64,000 nucleotides of DNA, taken from contig JAJPKK010000114.1 in the NCBI GenBank assembly GCA_021323775.1, positions 1 through 64,000 of the forward strand, read 5' to 3'. How positions within the stretch are numbered: position 1 is the first letter of the stretch; each line of letters opens with the position of its first letter. Below the pieces are notes generated by a model. It had not been told where the DNA came from and searched no databases. It worked only from the letters and a program-made list of their open reading frames with translations. A program made the position numbers and the translations under genes. The DNA is from Hyphomicrobiales bacterium. GTDB taxonomy: Bacteria; Pseudomonadota; Alphaproteobacteria; Rhizobiales; Xanthobacteraceae. Below are positions 2,812 through 13,936 of the stretch, piece after piece.

Positions 2812-2939
2812 GGCGCTCTCCCCGCAGGCGAAAGGGAGCGGCAGGCCGCTCGATATGGCGCCGGGCTTCGGGTCTCAGACGACGCGCGATGGGGACGCGC
2901 CGGCGAGAGGGCCAAAGACCCTGCAAGGCTGCCTTCGCT

Positions 2940-3235
2940 TGGATGGGGAAGATCCCCGATCCGCACGTGCGGCAATGATGAACAAGCCTCTTCGGTAGCC
3001 CGCGCCGGTTGGTGGAGGACCGGCAGAGACCAAAAAAGCCCGCTCCGTCGTTGCTTTAAGCCGCGTCCCCCGTGGAGAACGAGGTGCGCCGGTTTCGCCT
3101 CCGGCTGTCAATCAAGTGTTCGGAGCTCAAACGATCCGATGACCTTACGGTCATCGCGATCTCGCTCCGGGCGGCTGTCCGGCCTCTTGTCCGGATGCCC
3201 ACCGACTGACACACGGCCACAGGCACGTGCGAAAT
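2940..3235 (-). ncRNA. Candidate structured 5' leader of the decarboxylase mRNA (speF-leader-like)
   Basis: Long non-coding gap upstream of odc with several hairpins: GATGACC-TTAC-GGTCATC (3138-3155), GCCGGT..ACCGGC (3004-3024), CCGCACGTGCGG (2961-2972), GGGGAAGATCCCC (2945-2957). speF leader RNA is known upstream of ODC genes in alphaproteobacteria; the covariance model was not run. Confidence 0.5.
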
Positions 3236-3359
3236 TGGGCAATTTCGAAATAAGTGATTTTAAAAATTCGCGCAAGCTCTTTGCGCCGCCAGAGCCGCTG
3301 CAAACTCAAAAAAATTTTCGGAGTCGCTCGGACGCGTTCGAATGCCGCTTAACGGCGCA

Positions 3360-11503: not shown

Positions 11504-11753
11504 CCGCGAGCGATCGCGGCGTCGCCGCGCAACACGTCCTGATCCACTCGAAATTCAAAGAGCCACAATTCTTGAGCCCCCTTCGATCTTTCTCGTTCAT
11601 AATCGGCAAAGCCGTCTCGTGTCTATTTGGTGCAGGGGGCTCTCTTAGGCTTTGAGAGCGGGGCCGGCGCCTTGACATCTCCGGCGTAGCTGCGCGGCGA
11701 TGATGCCTGAGATAGAACGCTGCGGATATGAACGCAAACGACGGCTGAGCCGG

Positions 11754-13172
11754 ATGGCGAACACGCAAGCACAGGACCGGCGCGGCCTGCCATCCGTCGA
11801 TGCGGTGATGCGCAGCGCCGCCGCACGGGCGGCGGCGGAGCGGTTCGGACGTTCCGCCGCTGTCGACGCGGTGCGGCAGGAGCTCGCGGAACTGCGCCGC
11901 AACGGCCTCGCGGTTGCCGAGGACGATGCTGCCGCCCTGGCGCTGGCCCGTCTTGAAGCCGCCGACGCTGCGCGCCTCAGGCGCGTCTACAATCTCACCG
12001 GCACTGTGCTGCATACGAATCTCGGCCGCGCCGTGGTCGCGGAGACCGCAATCGCGGCGGCGGCTGAGGCGATGCGCCACGCCGTTGCGCTCGAATATGA
12101 TCTTCGCGCAGGCAGGCGCGGCGACCGCGACGACGTTCTGCGTGATCTATTGCGCGAGCTGACCGGCGCCGCGGACGCCACCGTGGTGAACAACAACGCC
12201 GCCGCGGTGCTGCTGGTCCTCAACACGCTCGCCAAGGGCCGCGAGGCGATCGTGTCGCGCGGCGAGCTGATTGAGATCGGCGGCGCTTTCCGCATGCCCG
12301 AGATCATGAGCCGCGCGGGCGCCAGGCTCGTTGAGGTCGGCACCACCAACCGCACCCACCTCAAGGACTATGTTGATGCACTGGGGCCGAAGACCGGCGC
12401 GGTGCTGAAGGTTCATCCGTCGAACTATCGCATCGAAGGGTTTACGGCGCAGGTTGCGGCGGCTTCGCTCGCCCCTCTGACGCGCCGCCACGGCGTGCAG
12501 CTGATCGACGATCTCGGCTCCGGCACCCTCATCGATCTCGCTGGCTTCGGCCTTCCCCACGAGCCCACGGTCGCCCAGGCGGTCGCGGCGGCCGACCTTG
12601 TGACGTTCTCCGGCGACAAGCTCCTGGGAGGCCCGCAGGCGGGATTCATCGTCGGACGCGCGGATTTGGTGGCGCGGATCAACAAGAATCCGCTCAAGAG
12701 CGCGCTGCGCATCGACAAGGCGCGGCTTGCCGCGCTCGAAGCGACGCTCAAGCTCTATCGCGATCCCGACCGGCTGGCCTCTCGCCTGCCGACGCTCCGC
12801 CTGCTCACTCGCCGCCCCGATGACATTGCCGCGATGGCATCCCGGTTGCGGCCCGCGATGCAGGAAAGACTCGGCGACGGCTTCACGGTGGATGTCGTGA
12901 AATGCGAGAGCGAGATCGGCTCAGGCGCGCTGCCTCGCCAGACCATTCCGAGCGCCGGGCTTGCGATCCGACCCATCGCGGCGCGCGGCGCCGGCCGTCT
13001 ACTTGCCGGTCTCGCGGCATCGCTGCGCCGCCTGCCCGTGCCGGTGATCGGCCGCATCGCGAATGATGGCTTGATTCTCGATTTGAGATGTCTCGATGAA
13101 GAAGGGGCGTTCCTGGAAAATCTGGCGTCGCTGCGGGCGCCAGCGGCTTACAGCGTGTCCCGGTCGACCTGA
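11754..13172 (+). CDS. selA: L-seryl-tRNA(Sec) selenium transferase
   Basis: YNLTGTVLHTNLGRA, GAGLVEVGTTNRTH-type motif, VHPSNYRIEGFT, DLVTFSGDKLLGGPQAGFIVGR. Confidence 0.95.
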   Translation: MANTQAQDRRGLPSVDAVMRSAAARAAAERFGRSAAVDAVRQELAELRRNGLAVAEDDAAALALARLEAADAARLRRVYNLTGTVLHTNLGRAVVAETAIAAAAEAMRHAVALEYDLRAGRRGDRDDVLRDLLRELTGAADATVVNNNAAAVLLVLNTLAKGREAIVSRGELIEIGGAFRMPEIMSRAGARLVEVGTTNRTHLKDYVDALGPKTGAVLKVHPSNYRIEGFTAQVAAASLAPLTRRHGVQLIDDLGSGTLIDLAGFGLPHEPTVAQAVAAADLVTFSGDKLLGGPQAGFIVGRADLVARINKNPLKSALRIDKARLAALEATLKLYRDPDRLASRLPTLRLLTRRPDDIAAMASRLRPAMQERLGDGFTVDVVKCESEIGSGALPRQTIPSAGLAIRPIAARGAGRLLAGLAASLRRLPVPVIGRIANDGLILDLRCLDEEGAFLENLASLRAPAAYSVSRST

Positions 13173-13278: not shown

Positions 13279-13405
13279 GACGGCAGTGGATGGGTGAGCG
13301 CCGATTCCAGTCGACCGGGCGCCGCTCCAGCCGATCGCTGCGGCCTGGCGCCAAAGAGGGCCGCCTCCTGCATCTGAGGTCAGAACCTTCAAGGCTACAT
13401 AGCCC

Positions 13406-13434
13406 TTGACCTATGAGAACAAAACAAGAACAAT
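13406..13434 (+). promoter_or_regulatory. Promoter with LexA-type operator GAAC-N7-GAAC
   Basis: TTGACC (13406-13411), GAACAAAACAAGAAC (13417-13431), AACAAT (13429-13434, 17 bp spacing); matches the alphaproteobacterial SOS box. Confidence 0.7.
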
Positions 13435-13462
13435 AAGCTGAGGTCAAGCAGGAGGCGTTGCG

Positions 13463-13744
13463 ATGAGCCGTCTGGGCCGTGCGAGGGGACGACTGCAAGC
13501 CGGCGCCTGTCCCTATCAAGTCGATCTCATCCCGCCGCTCGGCGGCTTTGATGACGCCGTCGAGGAAGAGATAATCCGGTTTCTGGAGCGACGCGCCGGA
13601 AGGTTCGAGGTGCGCGGGCAGATTGCAAATGGCGACGCTTTCATTCGGTATTGCTTCGCGCACCTGGCGGACGCGGAGGCCTTCCATGCTCAGTTTGCGC
13701 CAGTGGCCGAAAAGGCAATCCTCAGGAAAGCTGGAAAGCCTTAA
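13463..13744 (+). CDS. Conserved-looking small protein of unknown function, putatively SOS-regulated
   Basis: 93 aa ORF, perfect AGGAGG Shine-Dalgarno 7 nt before ATG, LexA-type box upstream. Confidence 0.65.
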   Translation: MSRLGRARGRLQAGACPYQVDLIPPLGGFDDAVEEEIIRFLERRAGRFEVRGQIANGDAFIRYCFAHLADAEAFHAQFAPVAEKAILRKAGKP

Positions 13745-13840
13745 GAGTTGATCCGAGGTTTCTTCTGCCGTTACTGGATTGCAGTCACGCGCCGGAGGCA
13801 GGCTAAGACTCTTTCGATCGCGTTCATATCGCTGCAAGAG

Positions 13841-13936
13841 GGAAGAGAAGCGTCCCCGGTGGGGCGTCCGGACTTCAAATCCGCGAAAGGGCCGCCTGCC
13901 GGTCCTTGGTGGGTTCGACTCCCACTCTCTTCCGCC
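13841..13936 (+). tRNA. selC: tRNA-Sec (anticodon UCA)
   Basis: 8 bp acceptor stem GGAAGAGA/TCTCTTCC, loop CTTCAAA with TCA anticodon, long variable arm, T arm GTGGG-TTCGACT-CCCAC; near selA. Confidence 0.95.

Follow-up and report, generated by a model that had tools for sequence, protein, structure and literature searches.

The window analyzed here, a stretch of 64,000 nucleotides of Hyphomicrobiales DNA from a soil bacterium, contains a 93-residue open reading frame (13463 (ATG) to 13744 (stop), forward strand) located between selA and the tRNA-Sec gene. The upstream neighbor selA (11700–13172, forward strand; TIGR00474, E 1.5e-166) lies outside the unit, and tRNA-Sec (selC; 13841–13936, forward strand) follows downstream. 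The elements preceding the ORF are all on the forward strand. An AGGAGG Shine-Dalgarno sequence (13450–13455) is placed 7 nt before the ATG and, like the −35 hexamer TTGACC (13406–13411), was read directly from the sequence; with AACAAT (13429–13434) read as the −10 hexamer, the pair has a 17-bp spacer and matches 9 of 12 consensus bases. An earlier, sequence-only reading had proposed this promoter, ribosome-binding site, and 93-codon frame, as well as their place between selA and tRNA-Sec, and all of these were recovered at the same positions. A LexA-type operator, GAACAAAACAAGAAC (13417–13431), with an exact GAAC-N7-GAAC match, sits inside the −35/−10 spacer and overlaps the −10 hexamer.

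A perfect 8-bp inverted repeat (CTTGACCT, 13405–13412; AGGTCAAG, 13441–13448) flanks the box, and a similar TTGAC ... GTCAA arrangement recurs in several close homologs. Nothing unusual was seen in the RNA structure of the 5′ leader or of the region before tRNA-Sec. No terminator-like site was found between the ORF and tRNA-Sec (13745–13840), so read-through from one into the other is possible. The selA/tRNA-Sec setting was observed in the window alone, the relatives examined having other neighbors. Elsewhere in the window (2877–3240, minus strand), an Rfam speF leader lies beside the alphaproteobacterial sRNA ar45.

Taken alone, a GAAC-N7-GAAC match proves nothing. The exact match claimed in the sequence-only reading is present, but the generic pattern is no more frequent than chance, both in the window (2 vs. 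1.8 expected) and in the genome (156 vs. 184 for a reversed control; genome-wide box scoring was done with patterns). The case for a real box in the window comes from conservation. The A-rich form GAACRWANNNNGAAC is enriched in the genome, although its ratio of 18 vs. 3 is descriptive, the form having been picked after the sites were seen. A-rich boxes also occur near ORFs at L101, L104/L117, and L102, taken by eye to encode RmuC, a DnaE-type polymerase, and a Cas9-like protein.

Close homologs were collected by searches of genomes and GTDB contigs, from entries titled Xanthobacteraceae, Hyphomicrobiaceae, and Hyphomicrobiales MAGs. Once duplicates were removed, the set comprised 22 genes, including the window gene and a paralog in the same genome. 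An exact GAAC-N7-GAAC lies 46–102 nt upstream of every one of them (0.003 expected per 125 nt); absence of the box in front of orthologs had been named beforehand as grounds for rejecting the idea, and the box is kept in 22/22. Among other ORFs in the sampled loci, 8/269 have a box within 120 nt upstream, several of these being frames that overlap or face a family gene. In the aligned close promoters, the box is mostly preceded by TTGAC or TTTAC and followed by A-A-T. Because the 22 genes are kin, and hence do not represent 22 independent events, more weight falls on the window gene, its paralog, and L002, whose promoter flanks have clearly diverged around invariant half-sites; as a sign of a functional operator, this pattern is stronger evidence than the count itself. 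Nine gene pairs tested gave dN/dS values of 0.03–0.28, indicating purifying selection on the protein. Two family members also lie close together in one locus (L072, L073, L074, and L059), which suggests local duplication.

The paralog (contig C285) is 49% identical to the window protein and is preceded by the identical 15-mer GAACAAAACAAGAAC (G000:C285:7928–7942) at the same 46-nt distance before the start. Boxes of the same form are found upstream of the lexA (TIGR00498; GAACACATATGGAAC) and recA (TIGR02012; GAACATCTTGCGAAC) genes of this genome, which thus encodes both LexA and RecA under window-type boxes. A further box, GAACAAATAGGGAAC, also lies 46 nt upstream of an ORF that was judged by eye to be imuA-like. 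A third exact copy of GAACAAAACAAGAAC (L096, G000:C70:1015–1029) lies upstream of an ORF that, again by eye, presumably encodes a glycosyltransferase. An in-frame TGA in the match to the paralog raised the idea of a selenoprotein, which was dropped, as the 92-residue frame is open from GTG to stop.

No Pfam or NCBIfam family reaches cut-off for the window ORF, and the wider superfamily has no Pfam, NCBIfam, or PHROG assignment. The initial failure to recognize a family is thereby borne out, and by sequence comparison the ORF belongs to a family undescribed in the libraries searched. A Pfam match to luteovirus replicase, below cut-off, and weak NCBIfam and PHROG matches were taken as chance, and a sequence search of the PDB found nothing. 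Members are roughly 80–110 residues long, and their core is conserved as P-[HY]-x-V ... C-F ... A-x-x-F-x-x-x-F. Because the profile that initially gathered the distant set contained one distant member, HMMs of the close and distant sets were also built separately; these find each other reciprocally, and hhalign links the two branches at 98.9% probability (E 3e-17). In the distant branch, a box lies within 300 nt upstream in 12/36 members (0.3 expected); of the remaining two thirds or so, some are located within operons or at the ends of contigs.

The family has a scattered distribution in Hyphomicrobiales, with members in 35/399 genomes of the same family and 8/398 of the same order, and occurs also on plasmids of Rhizobium, Sinorhizobium, Mesorhizobium, Shinella, Pelagibacterium, and Aminobacter. 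These plasmid matches come from distant relatives; the window protein by itself gave none. The member on plasmid pRetNXC12d of Rhizobium etli, a cultivated species, has a box 25 nt upstream and lies two genes before a Ref-family nuclease gene. A phage origin is unsupported, a viral-contig scan and phage tblastn having returned no relatives.

The window gene and its paralog have no adjacent repair gene; DNA-repair neighborhoods are a feature of their relatives. SRAP homologs occur in about 16 distant loci, a few of the matches being weak or partial; of eight SRAP proteins tested against Pfam, seven were confirmed, and that of L124 fell below the threshold used. Three loci (L080, L086, and L125) are tight operons in which between a few and 13 nt separate the end of the small gene from the SRAP gene downstream, and in L002 the box is followed by the small gene, umuD, and umuC in one tightly ordered operon. 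Near 13/19 close loci there is a ligD gene (LigD and Ku models matched in the neighborhood scan), but it is convergent with the small gene, so this link may be mere synteny. SRAP has been described in association with UmuDC, ImuAB-DnaE2, DinB, Ku, and ligase (PMC3765255), and the repair contexts of the present family fall within that network.

Retention of the predicted operator by relatives, together with the frequent position of relatives beside DNA-repair genes, makes the window gene a probable, so far overlooked member of the SOS response. Control by LexA is well supported by comparison. The earlier suggestion of an undescribed SOS-regulon member gains support from the 22/22 boxes, the shared 15-mer at the paralog, and the repair-gene contexts. 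The gene is probably repressed by LexA as part of the SOS regulon, and its product, from an undescribed family, is probably an accessory factor in tolerating or repairing lesions. LexA bound at 13417–13431 would cover the −10 hexamer and the spacer upstream of it and so block transcription; upon DNA damage, LexA would be cleaved and the 93-residue protein made. The protein would then most likely play a non-enzymatic, accessory part alongside SRAP/YedK-type abasic-site proteins and Y-family polymerases. Weighing against this reading are the lack of repair genes next to the window gene and its paralog, the distant members with no box within 300 nt, the possible synteny of ligD, and a fold of moderate confidence with no significant Foldseek match. 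Members also differ widely in net charge (pI 4.5 to 9.8), so a mechanism based on charge would not be common to them.

A different role for an SOS-regulated product would be to modulate the SOS signal itself, as a functional equivalent of DinI or ImpC whose target is the RecA filament or UmuD processing. ImpC of the impCAB operon is described as DinI-like (PMC12211044). The window protein is likewise small and predicted to be SOS-controlled, and the small gene comes first in the L002 operon, in the order of impCAB. However, neither the window protein nor any of five relatives matched DinI in Pfam scans, and the 50 best hits in each of two PDB fold searches, run with models of moderate quality, include no DinI structure. 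DinI is an acidic protein, whereas charge is not conserved in the present family. A DinI-like role is considered unlikely. A bolder version, in which the family is an unrecognized regulator of the mutagenic SOS arm in Hyphomicrobiales that replaces DinI/ImpC via RecA-, UmuD-, or SRAP-dependent steps, and in which, given the lack of a terminator-like site before tRNA-Sec, transcription from the LexA-controlled promoter in the window might increase tRNA-Sec as well once DNA is damaged, is a long shot.

AlphaFold2 models of the window protein (mean pLDDT 76.3) and of a homolog (75.7) were obtained, the former with β-α-β-β-α-β topology, which suggests, with moderate confidence, a ferredoxin-like fold. 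The best Foldseek matches, although weak, are RRM domains, and with the topology they raise the idea of binding to RNA or single-stranded DNA via an RRM-like ferredoxin fold, independently of SRAP or polymerases. This seems rather improbable, given that the best match has an E-value of 0.019, most TM-scores are around or below 0.5, the second model matches a mixture of PII-like, RRM, and ribosomal proteins, and the fold is very common. Against PDB and BFVD, no Foldseek match reaches E 0.001, and no solved homolog was identified.

Some small LexA-controlled proteins inhibit cell division, and the gene might accordingly be induced by SOS to make a toxin or division inhibitor comparable to SidA or SulA; this is very unlikely, since inspection by eye shows no hydrophobic membrane segment, the predicted fold is a globular α/β one, and relatives share operons with SRAP and umuDC, without division genes or an antitoxin. 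A box arising by chance, with the gene outside LexA control, would agree with the unenriched generic pattern in window and genome, but is highly improbable in view of the position and promoter frame conserved throughout the close set, the 15-mer repeated at the paralog, and the enriched A-rich form.

As a LexA-repressed accessory factor, the window protein would bring an apparently undescribed family into the SOS network of a large order that includes rhizobia. The tight operons with SRAP and umuDC point to likely partners, and the family bears on bacterial abasic-site handling and on the choice of mutagenic repair.

Among known systems, SRAP (YedK-HMCES, PF02586) is likewise an SOS-network gene and often adjoins superfamily members, sometimes a few nucleotides apart. 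It is, however, a 220–260-residue domain and a proposed DNA-associated autopeptidase, with no sequence match to the much shorter window family; a Pfam scan found PF02586 in neighbors of relatives and not in the window ORF. The small standalone ImuB-C domain is similar in size (about 80 residues) and occurs alongside SRAP, Ku, ligase, and Y-family polymerases (PMC3765255), but it is described as mainly β with a conserved C-terminal Trp, unlike the β-α-β-β-α-β topology predicted for the present family. DinI and ImpC resemble the family in small size, in SOS control (predicted here), and in the impCAB-like gene order of L002; on the other side, no DinI profile matched, DinI was absent from the best fold matches, and charge is not conserved. 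While the window gene was not found as a listed LexA-regulon member in the literature searched, the box type is that of the alphaproteobacterial LexA regulon (GTTC-N7-GTTC), reported in Caulobacter as GTTCN7GTTC (PMC12700426), and the operator has the same placement, overlapping the promoter and conserved ahead of orthologs.
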